Source: a virus. From it: a stretch of 23,624 bases of DNA. This document shows, in pieces, positions 3,549 through 16,876 of the stretch. The notes beneath the pieces were generated by a model. The model had not been told where the DNA came from. It saw only the letters and a program-made list of their open reading frames with translations, and made no database searches. The stretch spans positions 1 to 23,624 of IMG/VR virus record IMGVR_UViG_3300034200_000684; one strand, given 5' to 3'. The stretch's first letter is position 1. Every line of letters starts with the position of its first letter. The position numbers were made by a program, and so were the translations under genes.

Positions 3549-3971
3549 TCAGGCGTCTCCCGCTTCGCCACCGCTGCCCTCTTGCGGGCTTCCCCCTGCG
3601 GCTGGGGCTGTTTCTTCTTTCGCATCTGCGTCCAGCTGTCGTGCCACGGCATCGGTGTCTTCCTTCCAAGTTGCTGCGTCTTCGACCGTGTTCCTCGCTG
3701 CGAGCCATGCGCTCATCAGCTTGTTGGTCCATCTGCCGTCCCACTCCTCGCCATCCAAAGCGTCGATCAGCAGCACCAGGCGGGCGTGTATCCACGTGGC
3801 CTTCCTGGCAATCTGCGCGTCGGTCAGCATGGGCAGCGGGTCCGGCCCCCGACGGCCCGTAGGCTTCGGGGCGGCGCGTCGCCGCCGCTCGAAGACCTCG
3901 GGCTGCCGGGCCTCGAACTCGTTCCACTCGCCAGTGCTCGGCGGGTGGCCTTCGTTGATGCGTCGAGTCAT
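3549..3971 (-). CDS. Hypothetical early protein following the RecT-like gene
   Basis: A 140-residue protein with no family I recognise. The first 50 residues are basic (FERRRRAAPKPTGRRGPDPL). Residues about 55-105 (TDAQIARKATWIHARLVLLI, then DALDGEEWDGRWTNKLMSAW) are predicted helical with several Trp residues. The last 35 are acidic and low-complexity (KEETAPAAGG and similar). The ATG at 3971 overlaps the TGA of the RecT-type gene as ATGA, indicating coupled translation; a longer in-frame version would run antisense through that gene and is rejected. Co-expression with an annealing protein makes a recombination or replication accessory role plausible, but this is guilt by association only. 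Confidence 0.65.
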   Translation of the reverse strand: MTRRINEGHPPSTGEWNEFEARQPEVFERRRRAAPKPTGRRGPDPLPMLTDAQIARKATWIHARLVLLIDALDGEEWDGRWTNKLMSAWLAARNTVEDAATWKEDTDAVARQLDADAKEETAPAAGGSPQEGSGGEAGDA

Positions 3972-4636
3972 CGGGCCTGCGCCTCCGCTTCGACCTCGGC
4001 GGCGTCGAAGTGCTCGGTGCCGTTGTCCTCGGCGTCGATATGGGTGATGCGGGCCACCTGCTGGCGGGCCTGCTGCACGTTGACGGCCACGTTCACGCTC
4101 GGCCGCATCCGGTCGGCCTCGTCGGGATCGACAATGCCCGAGAACCCGAAGGCGTAGCGGATCGCTTGAATGGCGGCCTTGTGCCGCAGCATGCGGGCGG
4201 GCCACTTCTTCCACGGGTCCGTGCCCTGGCGGCACTCAGCCAGGTACTCGGTGACCTCGACGGGGTGGCTGCGATCCTTGCGATGCACCTGGGCGGTGAT
4301 CGCCACCAGCTGCCCGTCGTCACTCAGGCGATCCACGAACGTGATGCCGTCGTAGGCCGCGTGGCTGTTCGCCATCGTCATCCACCCGTCGATGCCGACG
4401 ATGGGCTGGATGCCGCCGCCCCGCGTCGGGAAGGCGTAGATTTCCTTGGTCACCGGGTTCAGCCCGTACTCATTGGCCACGAGCAGGAACGCAGCGAACT
4501 GCTCCTTGGTCGCCTTGTCGCAGCCGCACGTCGCCCGCACCGTAGCCTCGAAGGCAGCGGGCTCCATGCCGAACTTCGTAGCCATCGAAAGCAGGATGCT
4601 CTTGCGGTCCTGCGTGTTTGCAATCTGCGTCGTCAT
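3968..4636 (-). CDS. RecT/Bet-family single-strand annealing recombinase
   Basis: A 222-residue protein. The core at about 50-90 (LLVANEYGLNPVTKEIYAFP, then TRGGGIQPIVGIDGWMTMAN) is the characteristic RecT/Bet segment: Y-G-L-N-P-x-T-K-E-I-Y, then a GGGI strand, then GxDGW. A middle segment with DPWKKWPARMLRHKAAIQAI also fits the family, where Met-Leu-Arg-His-Lys precedes a long helix. These proteins coat single-stranded DNA and anneal it to complementary strands during phage recombination. The ATG at 4636 follows AAAGGGA at about 10 bases. A partner exonuclease is not obvious in this operon; the GIY-YIG protein or the later metallophosphoesterase are candidates at most. Family assignment is strong. 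Confidence 0.9.
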   Translation of the reverse strand: MTTQIANTQDRKSILLSMATKFGMEPAAFEATVRATCGCDKATKEQFAAFLLVANEYGLNPVTKEIYAFPTRGGGIQPIVGIDGWMTMANSHAAYDGITFVDRLSDDGQLVAITAQVHRKDRSHPVEVTEYLAECRQGTDPWKKWPARMLRHKAAIQAIRYAFGFSGIVDPDEADRMRPSVNVAVNVQQARQQVARITHIDAEDNGTEHFDAAEVEAEAQAR

Positions 4637-9114: not shown

Positions 9115-11136
9115 TCACGAAACATTCCACTTGGCAGCTAGGCTCGCCCGTATCTCAGAAACCTCAGTAGACGAAAGCGCGCGGTCGAAGATCGCCAGCT
9201 CGCCAAGGTCGCCGTTCAGTCCACCGTACGCGAAGTTGCCCTGGGAATCGTCAAGCGCTTTCACTGAGCCAACCGACAGCACGGAAGAGGCGGTTGTCTG
9301 CGCGTTGCTCGCTGAAAATGTTCCGGCGCTAGTCGAAGCAAACGAATAGGAGTTGCCTGACTTTACAACGCTGACGACATACCACTGCGCAGGCAATGAC
9401 CCTCTTATTACCACGTTCGCGGACGGTCGCGCCCATATCTGTAGGTTGTTTTCAAGGTAAACACTAACGAAACCTGGGCTGAAAGTTCCCCAACCCCAAG
9501 CGGCAGCGTAAGGAGAAGTTGGCTTAAACACAAAAAACATACTGAAGTCCGCGTTCCCGATGATGGGGAACTGCGCCGCCGTATCAAGTCGCGTGCCACC
9601 TAAAAAGCGAACGACAGGCAGGCCATTCTGCACGGCCGTGCGGTACTTTGCGGCAGTGCCTAGCGACTGGATTAGATGGAATCCATTACCGCTCTTGTCC
9701 TCCCAACGCTGGACCGATGAATCGTCCGACGTTACTGCCGAGCCGCCAGAGGTGGCGTCAAACAATCCAGAGGAGGCGTCGTACCAAGCCTTCAGGTTTG
9801 GAGTAGAGGCAAGCGACGCCGTTCCAGGCGTCACGCTGCTCGTCGCCGACGAGTACGGCCCTGTGCCAGCCCCGTTGATCGCCGCCACGCGGAATACGTA
9901 GGCCGTGCCGTTGGTCAGCCCCGTGACGGTCGCCGAGGTCGTTGTCGAAGTGCCATCGGAGAACGTCGTCCACGAGGTGCCGCTGTTGCTGGAGAACTGC
10001 ACGGCGTAATCGGTGATTGCGTACCCGCCGTTGTCCACGGGGGCGGTCCACGAAACGGTCGCCTGCTCGTTGCCAGCGGTCGCGGAAACGCTCGTCGGCG
10101 CACCGAGCGGTGTCCAAGTGGCAATCGCCGTTCGCCGCCAGCCAGAGGCGGATTTGACGTAGAGGAACGAGGCGTCGTATGCGATGTCGCCGTTCGTGCC
10201 GCTCGCCGAGGGCGACATCGGCACGGGCTGCCACGACACGCCTGCACTGCCGGTTTGGCCCTGCGGAATGGTGAAGTCTAAGACGACTGCCGATGAAGTG
10301 CCGCTATTCGTGACGCTCGCGGACGAGCCAGCCGCGCCGGTGGTCACCGTGCCGATAGCAATCGTCGCCGGGCCTTGCGGACCCTGCGGCCCCGTGATCG
10401 CCGATAACGCCACGAGGTCGGTCCATGCCGCGTCGCCGACGTAGCGCCACTGAACGTGCGTGGCCGTGACCTGAAGCTGCACTTCGCGGCCGTTGGTGCC
10501 GTTGCTTCCGTTGGTTCCGTTGGTCCCGTTCGTGCCAGCCGCCCCGGTGTCGCCTCGCGGAATCGTGAAGTTGAAGACCGCCGCCGAACTGTTCCCGGCA
10601 TTGGTCACGCTCGCATTGGAGCCCGCTGCCCCGGTCGTGACAGTCCCGACAGATACCGTCGCCGCTGCGCCAGCCGGTCCCGTTGCTCCTGTGTTGCCGG
10701 TTGCGCCAACATCGCCTCGTGGAATCGTGAGCGAAAGCGTCTGGTTCGGAGCGGTGCCTGTGATGGTCGCGGATGCGTTGCTTCCGGCCGCCCCGGTCGT
10801 CACCGTGCCAACCGTCAGGCTATTCGCAGGCCCAGCCGGGCCGACGCTACCCGTTGCGCCAGTGCTGCCCGTGGCTCCTGTCTGGCCGGTGTCGCCGCGC
10901 GGGATGGTCAGCGAAAGCGTCTGATTGGGTGCCGTCCCGGTCAGCGTTGCGGAGGCGTTTGACCCCGCCGCGCCGGTGGTCACCGTGCCAATGGCGAGCG
11001 TGGTCGCTGGCCCCGTGTCGCCCTTCGGCCCGCGATCCCCGCCCATCTGCGTGACTGTGACTGCGGCAGTGCCTCCTGTCACGTCAACCGTGACAGGGCT
11101 TCCGCCGCTCGCGCTTACGGTGATGTCGTCGCTCAT
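9115..11136 (-). CDS. Tail fibre / receptor-binding protein with collagen-like, FN3 and LamG-like regions
   Basis: A 673-residue modular protein. Residues 1-44 form a short N-terminus ending in a collagen-like start (GPKGDTGPA). Residues 45-299 contain four copies of a roughly 40-residue unit built on GTVTTGAAGS, an Ala/Ser/Thr strand and FTIPRGDTG, separated by Gly-x-y collagen-like spacers (GATGSTGATG; TNGTNGTNG). Residues 300-344 resemble a fibre segment with NGDIAYDASFLYVKS. Residues about 345-438 are a fibronectin type III domain (GAPTSVSATAGNEQATVSWT; NGTAYVFRVAAINGAG). Residues 439-673 look like a concanavalin/LamG-type jelly roll (LKAWYDASSG; FSMFFVFKPT; LNGDLGELAIFDRALSSTEV), a likely sugar-binding tip. 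It starts as ATGA with the upstream gene. The role in host adsorption is inferred from architecture and position. Confidence 0.85.
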   Translation of the reverse strand: MSDDITVSASGGSPVTVDVTGGTAAVTVTQMGGDRGPKGDTGPATTLAIGTVTTGAAGSNASATLTGTAPNQTLSLTIPRGDTGQTGATGSTGATGSVGPAGPANSLTVGTVTTGAAGSNASATITGTAPNQTLSLTIPRGDVGATGNTGATGPAGAAATVSVGTVTTGAAGSNASVTNAGNSSAAVFNFTIPRGDTGAAGTNGTNGTNGSNGTNGREVQLQVTATHVQWRYVGDAAWTDLVALSAITGPQGPQGPATIAIGTVTTGAAGSSASVTNSGTSSAVVLDFTIPQGQTGSAGVSWQPVPMSPSASGTNGDIAYDASFLYVKSASGWRRTAIATWTPLGAPTSVSATAGNEQATVSWTAPVDNGGYAITDYAVQFSSNSGTSWTTFSDGTSTTTSATVTGLTNGTAYVFRVAAINGAGTGPYSSATSSVTPGTASLASTPNLKAWYDASSGLFDATSGGSAVTSDDSSVQRWEDKSGNGFHLIQSLGTAAKYRTAVQNGLPVVRFLGGTRLDTAAQFPIIGNADFSMFFVFKPTSPYAAAWGWGTFSPGFVSVYLENNLQIWARPSANVVIRGSLPAQWYVVSVVKSGNSYSFASTSAGTFSASNAQTTASSVLSVGSVKALDDSQGNFAYGGLNGDLGELAIFDRALSSTEVSEIRASLAAKWNVS
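10240..11004 (-). repeat. Four imperfect coding repeats in the tail-fibre gene
   Basis: Residues 45-104, 105-158, 159-216 and 257-299 of the fibre share GTVTTGAAGS and TIP-x-G-x-x-G cores. Units 1 and 2 are nearly identical up to their spacers; unit 4 is the most divergent and is displaced by a 40-residue insert (REVQLQVTATHVQWRY region). Such arrays can expand or contract by recombination. Confidence 0.8.
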
Positions 11137-11511: not shown

Positions 11512-11937
11512 TCAGCCTAACGGTGGTTGCGAGAGGCTTGCAGATGAGGCCCGGCGGGCGTTGGCGATAGCCCGCCTCACAAGCATCCGCCCAGCGGCGT
11601 CGAGGAACGGCAGGCCGCGTGCCTTCGCTTCCTCTCGCATCACCGCCACCACCTCCTCGATCCGTTCGGGCTTGCTGCACTCGTCTGGCCCCCAAGCGTC
11701 CATCTCGGCGGCCTTGGCCCGGCAGGCGCAGGTGGGCGTGGGCTCGATGCCGAAGCGTTTCAAGAGCTTGGAGAGTTCGGTGCCGGGGCCGGAGGATGGG
11801 TGTGGTGGTGGCGGCAGCCACGACTTGCCCGGCCATCTCGGCACGCTGCACATGCGATAGATGTTTGCTTTTTCTGCCGCTCGCCCGCACCGGACACAAG
11901 TGAGCGTGCCGCTGTCGATTTCGCAAACAAAGTTCAC
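11512..11937 (-). CDS. Conserved-looking Cys-containing hypothetical protein
   Basis: A 141-residue protein starting at GTG with GAGG six bases upstream. The N-terminus carries a Cys pair (LTCVRCGRA, with a further Cys at residue 5) that could bind zinc. After a Pro-rich linker comes ELSKLLKRFGIEPTPTCACR, then AEMDAWGPDECSKPERIEEV and GLPFLDAAGRMLVRRAIANA. I recall this Cys-rich, GLPFLDAAGR-type pattern from unnamed phage and planctomycete proteins, where it sits near tail genes. Function unknown; a metal-bound tail accessory is one possibility. Confidence 0.6.
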   Translation of the reverse strand: MNFVCEIDSGTLTCVRCGRAAEKANIYRMCSVPRWPGKSWLPPPPHPSSGPGTELSKLLKRFGIEPTPTCACRAKAAEMDAWGPDECSKPERIEEVVAVMREEAKARGLPFLDAAGRMLVRRAIANARRASSASLSQPPLG

Positions 11938-11946
11938 TGGCTACCT

Positions 11947-12774
11947 CTAGTTGTGCGCCGTAAGAGTCACGTCGCCAAACGCGCCAGCGGTCGGCAAATA
12001 AACTGCTTTCGCAAGCACTAGCGGCTGGCGGTTTTCTGAGCAAAAAGACGGCCACGACGCGGCTACATTTTGTGGAGAAAAAAACTGGCCGTAAGTCACT
12101 GTGAATGGCGGGCGAGTTGCCCTTGGGTAGTCTTCGTCCCTAATCGCGGCAATGCAGAGATTAGAAACGAACCCAGTGCAACCAACTCCAACAGAGACAT
12201 ACAAGCCATTTCCTTCTAAAATTGTTTGCGAGTTGACAGGCGTTGCGCCTTGGCAACATCCAGGGCTTCCATCTGGAAGCGTTCCAAGATCGGTGAAGAA
12301 GCCGCCTCCTGAAAAAAAGAAAAATCCACCAACAGAAGATTGCAAAGAACACGCTGGCTCAAACGCCGGGGTGTAGGGCATCTCAATGGGAGACTGCGTG
12401 AGTTTTTGTTTTATTTTCTCGTAGCACTGCGTAAACGAGTCGCCTGGATGCGATTGAGTGTTGGCAAAATTGGAGGTGCAAGACATCCCTGGCGGAATTG
12501 GGTCAAAATTACTGAATGCAATCGTTATTTTTTTGGGAAACTTGGGGCAGGACAGCCCGCACGGTTGTGTGCAGACGCAGCCTTGCGGGCATGGGTCGCA
12601 AGCGTTTGCGACAACGCTCGGCTGGCCAGGACAAGCGTGCACAGTTGGCTGTTCGCACGTCTGCCCCGCCTTAAACGTCCCGCCATTCTGCTGGCACTCG
12701 CACGAACCGACGCTCGTGCAGGTCGTGCCTTGGCAGCACACGCCGTTCGTGCCTTCGCAGCAACAACAGGCCAT
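11947..12774 (-). CDS. Cys-rich virion or tail protein, function unknown
   Basis: A 275-residue protein. About 17 Cys residues fall in the first 80 or so (ACCCCEGTNGVCCQGTTC; SCECQQNGGTFKAGQTC; CDPCPQGCVCTQPCGLSCP), with CC, C-x-C and C-x-x-C spacing. This resembles disulfide-knotted or metal-binding modules of extracellular proteins. The remaining 190 residues are beta-rich (KKITIAFSNFDP; GGFFFFSGGGFFTDLG; PPFTVTYGQFFS) with a few more Cys. The ATG at 12774 follows the upstream stop by two bases and has GGGGT nearby; a longer frame upstream is rejected as antisense-like. The coding stretch 12000-12560 is visibly more A/T-rich than its neighbours. Its location between tape measure and fibre genes suggests a tail-tip or secreted-like structural part. 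Confidence 0.65.
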   Translation of the reverse strand: MACCCCEGTNGVCCQGTTCTSVGSCECQQNGGTFKAGQTCEQPTVHACPGQPSVVANACDPCPQGCVCTQPCGLSCPKFPKKITIAFSNFDPIPPGMSCTSNFANTQSHPGDSFTQCYEKIKQKLTQSPIEMPYTPAFEPACSLQSSVGGFFFFSGGGFFTDLGTLPDGSPGCCQGATPVNSQTILEGNGLYVSVGVGCTGFVSNLCIAAIRDEDYPRATRPPFTVTYGQFFSPQNVAASWPSFCSENRQPLVLAKAVYLPTAGAFGDVTLTAHN

Positions 12775-12776
12775 CG

Positions 12777-13235
12777 CTACACCCCGTAGGCAACAGAACT
12801 GACAGACGCCGTATACGCTGTGCTGAAAATCGACACAGAGCAATTCGCAGTATTTAGGCTGCCGTTGATGGCAAAGCCAGAAACGACGCTCACGGGGTTG
12901 ACGGCGACCCGAACGTCAACCAAATACCACGCCGTGCCGTCCTTCGCGACCGCACACGCTCTGTTACCGGCAGCCGTGTTCGTGACCGGGAAGAACTGAT
13001 TCATCGCCGCCAACGTGGCCGTCGAACCTTGCAGCGTCACGGTCTTTATGCTGCCAATCGACCATGCCCCGGTGAACGTGGCCATGCGAAAGACCTTGCG
13101 ATTCTGAGCCACCACCGGCATCTGCTCAAACACCAGCGGGCTCGCCGGGCGCGGGGCCGTCTCCACGGCTCGCACCGCATTGGCGATCCGCTCCGCAGAC
13201 TCATACGTGAATTGAACGGGCCGGGGATCGCTCAC
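12777..13235 (-). CDS. Putative tail structural protein
   Basis: A 152-residue protein starting at GTG (GTGA overlap with the upstream gene). The first 35 residues (FTYESAERIANAVRAVETAP) are a short helix; the rest is a run of beta strands (FRMATFTGAWSIGSIKTVTL; TAWYLVDVRVAVNPVSVV; SIFSTAYTASVSSVAYGV). The S-A-E-R-I-A-x-A-V-R-x-V-E opening is a pattern I associate with small proteins in similar tail clusters, but I cannot name a family. It is placed two genes after the tape measure, where distal-tail components usually are. Confidence 0.55.
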   Translation of the reverse strand: MSDPRPVQFTYESAERIANAVRAVETAPRPASPLVFEQMPVVAQNRKVFRMATFTGAWSIGSIKTVTLQGSTATLAAMNQFFPVTNTAAGNRACAVAKDGTAWYLVDVRVAVNPVSVVSGFAINGSLNTANCSVSIFSTAYTASVSSVAYGV

Positions 13236-14104
13236 GGGGTGGTTCCGAAGACAGCTTGCAGTGAAGCCTCTGGATTCACGCGACGAATCAAGATCTCTGG
13301 GTAGCCGGTGGGCGACGGCCCGCCGCTGCCGTCAAGCCCGATGGGGTTCGGGCTCGGCACCCATTCCGAGTTTTCAAAATCAAACACCATGGCTCTTCTT
13401 TTCTGCCCGCTCGCAATGAAGTTCCAGCCCACGTCGGGCAGTTGCAACGCCCATCCGCTCTGGCGATAGAGAAGCTCGGCCGTCGCACGATAGAACTTCA
13501 CGACGCCGCCGCCCCACTCTTCCATCTCTAGCGAGACGTTGACGCTGTTTACCTTGATCGTGCCAGCCTCGCAGCCGAAGTACGCCGCGTTGTTGACGTG
13601 ATTCATCACGCTAAACCATCCGGTCGGCCAACTGGCAAAGTTTTTCGTCACCTTCATCGACACCATCGACTCGTCGGTGGTCAGGCCAGGGAAGAAGTCA
13701 TAGGCGGAGTTGGTCAGCGGGTACGCGGTGCCGCCGTCGAAAAAGAACAGCGCAGGCACTTGTCCGCTGCGAGCCTCGGCACCCCACACCGCCGGGCGCG
13801 CTGTTGGAGACAACATGTCTTCTTCGGTCACTGCCCCGTACTCTGCGATCACCTCGATGTGGTACGGCGAGCCCTCAAAGCCCTCATTCATCGAGACTTT
13901 GCGGAGTTTGAAATCCCCGAATGACGGGTGCGCCGCTCCATACGCCGTGCCAGACGTGGCGGCCAGAACGGAACCCTCTGCGGTTGGATTGCCCACCGTC
14001 GTGTCATCGGACAACACGCACACCCAGCGGCGACGCGCAATCGGAAACTTCTTGATCTCCTGCTCAAACGTTCGGCCGAGCTCTTTGACGGAAACAATGC
14101 CCAT
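13232..14104 (-). CDS. Putative distal tail protein, next to tape measure
   Basis: A 290-residue protein. Residues about 80-190 have mixed beta content with acidic patches (EVIAEYGAVTEEDMLSPTAR; FFFDGGTAYPLTNSAYDFFP) and the C-terminal half is beta-rich (NVSLEMEEWGGGVVKFYRAT; MVFDFENSEWVPSPNP). It occupies the slot where siphophages encode Dit-type distal tail proteins, but I see no diagnostic motif. The ATG at 14104 lies three bases after the tape-measure stop. The protein is Pro/Gly-rich near the end (GPSPTGYPEI). Confidence 0.55.
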   Translation of the reverse strand: MGIVSVKELGRTFEQEIKKFPIARRRWVCVLSDDTTVGNPTAEGSVLAATSGTAYGAAHPSFGDFKLRKVSMNEGFEGSPYHIEVIAEYGAVTEEDMLSPTARPAVWGAEARSGQVPALFFFDGGTAYPLTNSAYDFFPGLTTDESMVSMKVTKNFASWPTGWFSVMNHVNNAAYFGCEAGTIKVNSVNVSLEMEEWGGGVVKFYRATAELLYRQSGWALQLPDVGWNFIASGQKRRAMVFDFENSEWVPSPNPIGLDGSGGPSPTGYPEILIRRVNPEASLQAVFGTTP

Positions 14105-14107
14105 GCG

Positions 14108-16876
14108 TCACCCCATGCGAGCCCCGCCGACAATCGCGACGGGAGAATTAAAGTAGTTGGCCGCCGCCTGCGTGATGCCAGCCGCGATCCGGTTGAGTTG
14201 TTTTGTTTGTAGGCGGGCTTCGATCAACGCCGGGTCTTGGGCCTGCTCAAATACGCTCTGCACCAGCGATTGCCCCTCGGCTGTGCGGAAGTCGGCGGTC
14301 TGCACTGCGGCGTTCGTCGGCCGCGAAAGTTCTTGGAACCGCCGCACGCGATCGGCCTGCTGTGCGGCAAACTGTGCGGTCTGAGCCAGAGCCGCGTTCG
14401 CCCCTGCGTAAGCGTTTTGGATGCCCGACAGGAACAGGTCGTTATTTCGAGCGATGAGTGATTGAAACTGCTGGGCGGGCGTGTTGCCTTGCTGAATCTG
14501 CCGCAACTGCTGCCGGTTGTTTTGCTCGCGGCCGTTGGCGATCTGCTGCTCGGCACGCTTTGCCTGGTTCAACTGGTTCAAGCGGTTCACGCCAGCGCGG
14601 GCGTCGGCAAGGTTGCCGTTCTTGCGGGCGGCCTCGACGGCCTCTCTCTCCTGGGCGATCTGGTCCTCAATCGCCTTGACGTTGAGGGCCGCCTCCTTCT
14701 TGCGCTCCTCCAGCCTCGCGGCGGCGTCGAGCTCGGCCCGCTGACGCTCGTCGAGTTGGCCCCGCAGGAAGCCCTCGACACGCTGGGCCGCCGCCTGCCG
14801 CTCGTTCGCCACGACCTGCTCTTGCTCGATCCGCTGCTGGAAGAACTCCTGCTGGCGGGCCACCTCAAGCTCAAAGGCTTCCCGGTTGAGGATGCCGTCC
14901 TTGACTAGCGCCTTCGCTGCCTCGATGCCAGCGGCGAGATCGGCCGCCGCCGCAGATCCCGCCGCACCAAACTCGTTGGCCTTCTCGATCGCCTGCTGCA
15001 CGGCATTGTCGGTCTCTTCAAACGCCTTCGCAAAGCCCTGGCCGAAGCCTTGCTCCAGAGCCTGCTGCTGCTCCTTGAGGTTGTCGCGGAGTTCCGTGAG
15101 TTGCCCGAGGCGGGCCTGGGCGTCAGCATCGGTCGCCTGCCGCACGACCTCAATCTTTCGCTCAACTGCCGCGAGGTCGTCTTGGAGTTTGCTGGAAGCG
15201 TCGCTGGTCTTGAGCAGGCTTTCGATCCGCTTGTCGTCGGCCGTGGCTTGCTGCGCGGCGGCGTCTGCGGCCTCTTGCCGTAGCGTCAGTTCCTTGGTGA
15301 GTTCGGCGTTCACGTTCTCCATGAAGCCGTCCATGATCTTGATCTGGTCGGCCGTCAGCCCGCCCTCGGCCGCCATCCGCTGGAAGGTGTCCAGCGTCTC
15401 CACGGACTGCCGCAGGAACTCCGAGCCGCCATCAGTGGCCGTGGTGAGGAACTGCTTCAGCCGCTCTTCGGTCGTCTCGAGGTTGGTGGCCACCTTGATC
15501 TCGGGCTGTTGGCTGGCCTCCACCTGCTCGCGGAACTTTTGGACGTAGGCCGTGGCGGCACCCTTGCCGCGCTCGGCCGCCGAGGTCTCGCCCTCGCCCA
15601 GGCCCACCGCATTGAGGCCCGCCTGGAAGGAGTTGGCCCCGGCTTCGAGGAACTCATTCTGATTCTTCGCCATCGCGGCCGAGGCTTCATTGGCGAGGTC
15701 GGCCCCGAACTGGGCGAGATCGTCCGACACCCACGCGCCAACCTCTTCGAGCAGTTTGCCGATGGCCAGCATGATGCCATTGCCGACCGTCTCAAAAAGA
15801 TTGAAGACCATCCGCAGCGATTCAGTCACTGCCGTGAAGGCGTTGGCAACGAACTGGAAAACGGCGCTGGCCTCGTCAATCGACGCCGTAAACCCGCTGA
15901 AGTTGCCCACGAACTGGTCAAACACGCCCGCGAAGATCTCAGCCCCTTGCAAGAGCACGTCCGTGATCGCGTTGGCAATCCCCGTGCCGCCTTCGCCCTG
16001 CGCACCGCTCCACTCCTCCACGAATCGCAGGAACTGGTTTGTCACGTCCGTGACCGCCGGAGCGAGGTTGCCGACCACCTGCCCGATGATGCCGTTGATG
16101 GTGGCACTCACCAGGTCAAAGGCATCGTTCATATCCGCCACGTTGTTGATCTGCGTCTCGCTGACGATGATGCCAAGCCGCTCGGCCCTCGCCCGAAGCT
16201 CTTCGATGCTGGCCGCCCCTTCGCGGAACAGCGGAGCCAGGGCCGCGCCCTGCTTGCCGAACACCTGCACGGCCACTGCCGCCCGCTCGGCCACCGTTGG
16301 CAACTGGGCAATGGCATCCCCGATCACGGAGAACTGCTGCTCAGGGGCAAGCATCCGCAACTCGGCCACGCTCAGGTTGATGCCACGCAGCGCCTTGTCC
16401 ATCGCATCGCCAGGCGTCGCCTTGCCAATGTTCACGGCCAACTTCTGGACCGCCACGCCGAAGGCTTCCGTGTCCACGCCCGCCATCTTTGCGGCGAGGG
16501 CATAGCCTTGGAGCGACTCCACGCCGATGCCCGTGCGGGCCGAGAGATCATTCAGCGAGTCGAGCGAGGAGCTGACGTTACCCGCCATCGTCAGCACGTT
16601 CTGAGCCGCGCTCGTAAACGCACTGCCGAGAGCCTGAAACGTGTCCACGAGCACGCGGCCGATCTCGATCGTGCTCAGGGTGCTCACGCCCTTGTTGAGC
16701 TTGTCGAGTTGCTGGGTGGTCTTATCGGCCTCGCCAGTGAACCGTTGCAGGCTCTTCTGGTTCTGATCGACGATCTTCTGGAGCAGTTGCAGTGCCTTGT
16801 CGGCGTCGGACAGCCCCTTGGTCATGCCAGAGGCGTTCGCCGTCATCTGCATGCCAACGCCGATTACTGTCGCCAT
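14108..16876 (-). CDS. Tail tape measure protein
   Basis: A 922-residue protein that sets tail length and is ejected with the DNA. The N-terminus (QMTANASGMTKGLSDADKAL, QKSLQRFTGEADKTTQQLDK) and the segment ARTGIGVESLQGYALAAKMA, followed by TPGDAMDKALRGINLSVAEL and VFGKQGAALAPLFREG, are typical of the tape-measure/minor-tail core domain. Two hydrophobic stretches follow (NGIIGQVVGNLAPAV; LFETVGNGIMLAIGKLLEEV). From about residue 540 to 820 the chain is Ala/Gln/Glu/Lys-rich and strongly coiled-coil (EQEQVVANERQAAAQR; RRQLNQLNQAKRAEQQI-like heptads). It starts three bases after the stop of the frameshifted chaperone, the standard gene order. The length would give a fairly long tail, using the usual rule of about 1.5 Angstrom per residue. 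Confidence 0.9.
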   Translation of the reverse strand: MATVIGVGMQMTANASGMTKGLSDADKALQLLQKIVDQNQKSLQRFTGEADKTTQQLDKLNKGVSTLSTIEIGRVLVDTFQALGSAFTSAAQNVLTMAGNVSSSLDSLNDLSARTGIGVESLQGYALAAKMAGVDTEAFGVAVQKLAVNIGKATPGDAMDKALRGINLSVAELRMLAPEQQFSVIGDAIAQLPTVAERAAVAVQVFGKQGAALAPLFREGAASIEELRARAERLGIIVSETQINNVADMNDAFDLVSATINGIIGQVVGNLAPAVTDVTNQFLRFVEEWSGAQGEGGTGIANAITDVLLQGAEIFAGVFDQFVGNFSGFTASIDEASAVFQFVANAFTAVTESLRMVFNLFETVGNGIMLAIGKLLEEVGAWVSDDLAQFGADLANEASAAMAKNQNEFLEAGANSFQAGLNAVGLGEGETSAAERGKGAATAYVQKFREQVEASQQPEIKVATNLETTEERLKQFLTTATDGGSEFLRQSVETLDTFQRMAAEGGLTADQIKIMDGFMENVNAELTKELTLRQEAADAAAQQATADDKRIESLLKTSDASSKLQDDLAAVERKIEVVRQATDADAQARLGQLTELRDNLKEQQQALEQGFGQGFAKAFEETDNAVQQAIEKANEFGAAGSAAAADLAAGIEAAKALVKDGILNREAFELEVARQQEFFQQRIEQEQVVANERQAAAQRVEGFLRGQLDERQRAELDAAARLEERKKEAALNVKAIEDQIAQEREAVEAARKNGNLADARAGVNRLNQLNQAKRAEQQIANGREQNNRQQLRQIQQGNTPAQQFQSLIARNNDLFLSGIQNAYAGANAALAQTAQFAAQQADRVRRFQELSRPTNAAVQTADFRTAEGQSLVQSVFEQAQDPALIEARLQTKQLNRIAAGITQAAANYFNSPVAIVGGARMG

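Follow-up and report, generated by a model that had tools for sequence, protein, structure and literature searches.

Gene content around the cysteine-rich gene

The window, i.e., the whole stretch of DNA that was analysed, is a 23,624-base IMG/VR virus record, and judged from its genes the phage is an HK97-like temperate siphophage. Predicted products include prohead protease, capsid, head-tail adaptor, head closure, tail completion and tail terminator proteins, as well as a tail assembly chaperone, tape measure, collagen-like fibre, integrase and Bet/RecT annealase. The gene of interest (11947–12774, minus strand; ATG at 12774, stop at 11947) encodes a 275-aa protein, P0001, which begins MACCCCEGTNGVCCQGTTCTSVGSCECQQNGGTFKAGQTC... 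and comprises a constant Cys-rich head and a variable body. On the same strand, the gene order leading to it is tape measure (14108–16876; phrog_9483, E 2.4e-23), a conserved 290-aa gene that is probably a tail gene (13232–14104; no family match) and, directly upstream, a conserved 152-aa neighbour forming the 5′ flank (12777–13235). Further along this strand lie a 141-aa gene, made up of a variable N-terminal part, with which the exchanged region ends on its 3′ side (11803–11937), and a conserved C-terminal core that is the cassette's 3′ flanking island (GPGTELSKLLKRFGIEPTPTCACRAKAAEMDAWGPDEC...; 11512–11802), a collagen-like/fn3 fibre gene matched in Pfam and PHROGs (9115–11136), and a gene for an annealing protein of the Bet/RecT type that may act in cassette exchange (3968–4636; PF03837, phrog_252). 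The cysteine-rich gene starts 2 nt past the stop codon of the 152-aa gene, with GGGGTG just 5′ of the start, and hence is probably translationally coupled to it.

A preliminary description of this locus had reported about 17 Cys in the first 80 residues of a protein from the tail gene cluster. Both statements hold: adaptor, head closure, tail completion/terminator, chaperone, tape measure and fibre genes surround the gene, and residues 1–80 contain exactly 17 Cys (positions 3, 4, 5, 6, 13, 14, 19, 25, 27, 40, 48, 59, 62, 66, 68, 72 and 76), with 25 in the protein overall. This is far above the window background (66 Cys in 6,595 aa, or 1.0%, across the 25 other genes counted; binomial P ~6e-18), and the other window genes have at most 6 Cys in any 80 aa. 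These counts, together with conserved homologues, rule out chance Cys richness or a wrong reading frame. The head (aa 1–80; 12535–12774, minus strand) has a GC3 of 0.74 and includes a core six-Cys module, G-x-C-C ... C-x5-C-x-C ... F ... C (aa 11–40; 12655–12744, minus strand), delimited by invariant residues and profile matches. GC3 falls to 0.48 in the body (aa 81–275; 11950–12534, minus strand) and returns to 0.67–0.81 downstream.

Cysteine-starting proteins recur at the same tail locus in related phages

When P0001 was used as a query, three distinct relatives were retrieved from viral contigs, each similar over the N-terminal part only. Additional loci were therefore gathered by using the neighbouring genes as baits, with the interval between the upstream gene and the 141-aa gene defined as the slot and the gene starts of slot proteins in relatives chosen by rule. 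A protein with an N-terminal Cys cluster was found in 70 of 71 distinct slots, compared with 9 of the 472 long frames that these loci contain outside the slot; as the baits select phages with conserved neighbours, this frequency describes that group rather than planctomycete phages at large. The preliminary description had named loss of the Cys pattern among homologues as a result that would count against it, and the pattern is retained in these 70 slots. The slot genes overlap, or sit close behind, the conserved tail gene, and many slots carry two Cys-start genes in tandem. All viral data are metagenomic, and chimeric assembly is possible for any single contig, yet the pattern recurs in many.

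The N-terminal clusters take the forms CCCC, CxCC, CPCC, CSPCC and CCC, and the N-terminal types include MACCCCEGTNGVCC (window phage), MPCYQ..TEAECxxACxEGACC, MxLATKNGSLIVKDGKLAENCGCC, MAMLGAxCSPCC and MxCPCC. Eight positions (G11, C13, C14, C19, C25, C27, F34 and C40) are invariant across 18 phage and provirus heads. The Cys total is odd in P0001 and in 55 of 83 slot proteins, leaving at least one thiol without a partner inside the P0001 chain. A hydrophobic stretch resembling a signal peptide is lacking in P0001 and in 77 of the 78 slot proteins checked. What follows the head differs greatly in extent: one slot protein (L055; ..GVGTTCSSNPCNPLP) is a head without any body, and slot proteins of 950–1052 aa with the same Cys-start type occur at L042 2113–5001, L157 6222–9077 and L172 5258–8416. 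An 80-residue poly-Ser tract, an 18-residue Ser tract and a 22-residue poly-Pro tract come straight after the Cys head in the slot proteins encoded at L033 5447–6115, L179 5718–6362 and L099 4150–4797, respectively.

Bodies are exchanged as cassettes behind the head

The body of P0001 had no detectable relative, either in a set of 96 slot proteins or in a viral scan, and 41 of these 96 proteins were singletons by body. Among 36 slot pairs in which both flanks shared ≥80% DNA identity, 30 had no detectable body similarity; the remaining six showed some similarity in the body region, three of them through a long shared head only. The window and L003, for example, share 98% DNA identity in the upstream gene and 93% in the 141-aa core, with bodies that cannot be aligned. 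The sharpest case is the comparison of L203 with L202, which are mismatch-free over 9,422 bp up to the last head codon (..GTGTACGCCGAATCCGTGCG, TCTPNPC). Past the head, 522 bp are replaced, after which 61 of 62 downstream mismatches fall within 600 bp and nearly none follow; an independent contig (L204) carries the L203 allele. In the near-clonal phage pair UViG_3300042444_000144 and UViG_3300042350_000705, the difference amounts to ~1.1 kb. It is thus close to certain that bodies are exchanged as cassettes between related phages, and the junction falls sharply where the head ends.

The head itself appears to take part in such recombination. The P0001 head shares 57%–68% amino acid identity over 60–70 aa with those of L002, L047 and L085, and at the DNA level it forms an island of 82%–91% identity, compared with 65%–68% in the upstream gene. 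Four-fold sites are 81%–92% identical in the head versus 52%–58% in the upstream gene (38/44 versus 84/153 sites identical; Fisher P 1e-4, with pairs that are not independent). This excess points to recent recombination inside the head, beyond protein constraint alone. Homologous recombination between the two conserved DNA islands, i.e., the head and the core of the 141-aa gene, would swap the bodies, and exchange of this kind means that one tail can carry many different bodies. The RecT annealase of the window phage could serve in this process; RecT is present in only 3 of 13 records examined, so a universal role in cassette exchange was rejected and the suggestion applies to the window phage alone. 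A diversity-generating retroelement was also rejected, given the unrelated bodies and the fact that 13 records, fragments among them, contained no reverse transcriptase. No silent body cassettes behind a second head were found elsewhere in 12 records.

The head shares a module with secreted proteins of the putative hosts

A profile of the head searched against 392 Planctomycetota genomes gave matches in eight (E 7.5e-8). Apart from a provirus, the inspected matches were repeats of the form GACCLPDGSC...C...GGTYQGDGTxC in predicted secreted Planctomycetota proteins, and the part of P0001 that matches the repeat (GACC..C...C...GGTYQGDGTxC) is residues 11–40. The repeat is present in more than 10 copies in L129 (565–2640) and occurs also in L127, L123 and L137. 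Against the GACC-repeat proteins the head profile scored 31.0 bits and gave 19 domains above 15 bits, whereas 40 column-shuffled profiles reached at most 5.1 bits and none exceeded 15, indicating that the match does not derive from Cys composition alone. No model of the repeat was present in Pfam or NCBIfam, and our literature search found no paper on the slot proteins or the repeat. The locus hence defines an uncatalogued Cys repeat common to host secreted proteins and phage tail proteins.

The phage head has the six-Cys spacing (GxCC..C...C...F/Y.G..C) and the Gly and aromatic residues of the host module, and the residues TTCTPNPC are common to L131 and phage heads. The two nonetheless differ in context. 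Host modules stand in tandem behind a signal peptide and are in many cases attached to reprolysin or trypsin-like proteases, whereas the phage module is usually single and N-terminal, has one extra C-x-C cysteine and lacks a signal peptide. By its sequence, the phage head shares the GACC module, and P0001 does not belong to the secreted group. Maturation of the head outside the cytoplasm is plausible, although without a signal peptide its oxidation would have to come after lysis.

Alignment of the 141-aa family identified one provirus with the same gene order in a Planctomycetaceae MAG (contig WTHB01000069.1), whose slot gene reads MACYQIKNLPDN..TEADCLKACAEGACCEADGSCSIKQQCECD.. and has a C-terminal NPLP. 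P0002 alone, used as a query against genome contigs, gave no match; the one provirus was recovered only with the alignment. A second planctomycete genome has a tape measure gene and a slot gene starting MCCEVVMVCCCENAVSPTLSV.., together with a gene distantly homologous to the 141-aa gene. The homologous provirus points to a planctomycete as host of the window phage. Planctomycetota are bacteria with an unusual protein-rich wall, and to our knowledge little is known of how phages recognise them.

Putative role in host recognition

Family searches gave P0001 no match in Pfam, PHROGs, NCBIfam, PDB sequences or INPHARED, and the tail genes had no relatives among 50,697 GenBank phage records. AlphaFold2 models had pLDDT values of 38 (P0001, 5-row alignment) and 45 (one body family, 7 rows); with these low-confidence models, Foldseek returned nothing in BFVD at E ≤0.001 and VIA-align against the PDB gave a best Z of 3.6. 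Given this model confidence, we claim no fold for P0001, and we treat the body as a candidate rather than an established binding domain. A body-family profile (A4) had no match in the 392 Planctomycetota genomes, a search that was run without a positive control and is thus uninformative.

We consider it moderately probable that P0001 is a host-recognition component (an adhesin or receptor-binding protein) of the tail tip or virion surface in a Planctomycetota siphophage. The points that speak for this are the location among the tail genes, with tape measure and fibre genes nearby, the 2-nt start, the Cys-start slots, the constant N-terminal part followed by exchanged, variable bodies, and the spacers after some heads. 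PMC12692247 describes the usual layout of phage receptor-binding proteins as a conserved N-terminal anchor and a distal variable receptor-binding part, which makes a recognition role for P0001 a natural reading. P0001 would accordingly sit in the virion, at the tail tip or surface, with the head as a compact, constant module fixing it to the tail and probably held by disulfides formed once the virion leaves the reducing cytoplasm. The body would be the end that meets the host surface and binds a receptor. Against this role, the odd Cys total of P0001 does not fit full disulfide pairing within the chain, and the separate downstream collagen/fn3 fibre gene could encode the real receptor binder.

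Other explanations of the head and the slot were weighed on the same evidence. That P0001 is a virion or tail protein whose head binds metal (Zn or Fe-S) in the cytoplasm and serves in assembly seems fairly unlikely: the missing signal peptide, the N-terminal CxCC/CCCC clusters and the odd Cys totals would suit it, but the six-Cys core matches repeats of host proteins that carry signal peptides and extracellular protease domains, a setting in which disulfides are to be expected, and the core has no conserved His. P0001 also had no match to a Zn or Fe-S family in Pfam, NCBIfam or PDB sequences, though the head may yet bind metal. The preliminary description had offered a disulfide-knotted secreted protein as a likeness and a metal-dependent assembly part as a possible role. 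The former gains support from the profile matches to signal-peptide-bearing secreted proteins and proteases; the latter found no support, and the constant head with its exchanged body had been overlooked.

The foreign GC3 of the body, its fast exchange and the likeness of the head to host secreted modules would also suit a surface conflict, as expected of a non-virion accessory gene (moron) whose product is released at lysis or acts on the lysogen surface, for example by blocking superinfection by related phages, with inter-phage conflict driving body variation. We regard this as unlikely, since 70 of 71 slots hold a Cys-start gene at one fixed place, where it overlaps a conserved tail gene or closely follows it, and a signal peptide for export from the lysogen is lacking. 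Roles could instead be reversed, with the head as the adhesive end, imitating the Cys-rich protein wall of the host or bonding with it by thiol-disulfide exchange, while the body docks or performs another task. The head is of a host extracellular type, and Cys-rich YTV-domain proteins have been reported in planctomycete cell walls (PMC8567305); however, docking in phage receptor-binding proteins is usually the task of the constant N-terminal part and binding that of the variable part, and here it is the body that varies. We rate this arrangement as very unlikely. A more far-reaching and quite improbable proposal is that one host-derived Cys-rich module serves as a universal tail-tip plug in a group of planctomycete phages, into which unrelated bodies are swapped, and that this plug uses disulfide exchange to attach the virion to the tail or the host's Cys-rich wall, as a redox-controlled adsorption device.

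Relation to known modular systems

As a recognition protein, P0001 would resemble modular phage receptor-binding proteins and tailspikes in its constant N-terminal part, exchanged distal part and tail-module location. It differs from them in that its anchor, a small Cys-rich module, is of the type seen in extracellular host proteins, in having no recognisable spike, fibre or lectin fold or family model, and in a virion location that is putative. Judged by sequence, this Cys-rich constant end of host type is an unusual twist on the modular phage host-recognition protein. Diversity-generating retroelements likewise produce a variable C-terminal part in phage host-recognition proteins, but their targets are point-varied copies, whereas the slot bodies are unrelated sequences. 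Polymorphic toxins share the constant N-terminal part and the C-terminal cassettes swapped by recombination; in contrast, the slot lies in a phage tail gene cluster, and no toxin domain or immunity gene was recognised there. The locus supplies a ready set of natural head-body pairs and, because the near-clonal pair differs in so short a region, body identity can be compared directly with host range.

Variation is also seen beside the slot. The 141-aa gene has no family match; its family (window 11512–11937; L002–L118) combines a highly conserved C-terminal core, which holds a C-x-C motif, with N-terminal Cys modules that can replace one another, either of the CxxCG type or CHRSHLEARCRERGYTLDEVMPCVVSQDGDEWTID... 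The C-terminal part of the fibre protein (9115–11136) lies outside the Pfam matches, and the DNA match between the window and L003 also stops at its start. At the window edge (1–1101), the phage encodes a DNA polymerase III beta sliding clamp.
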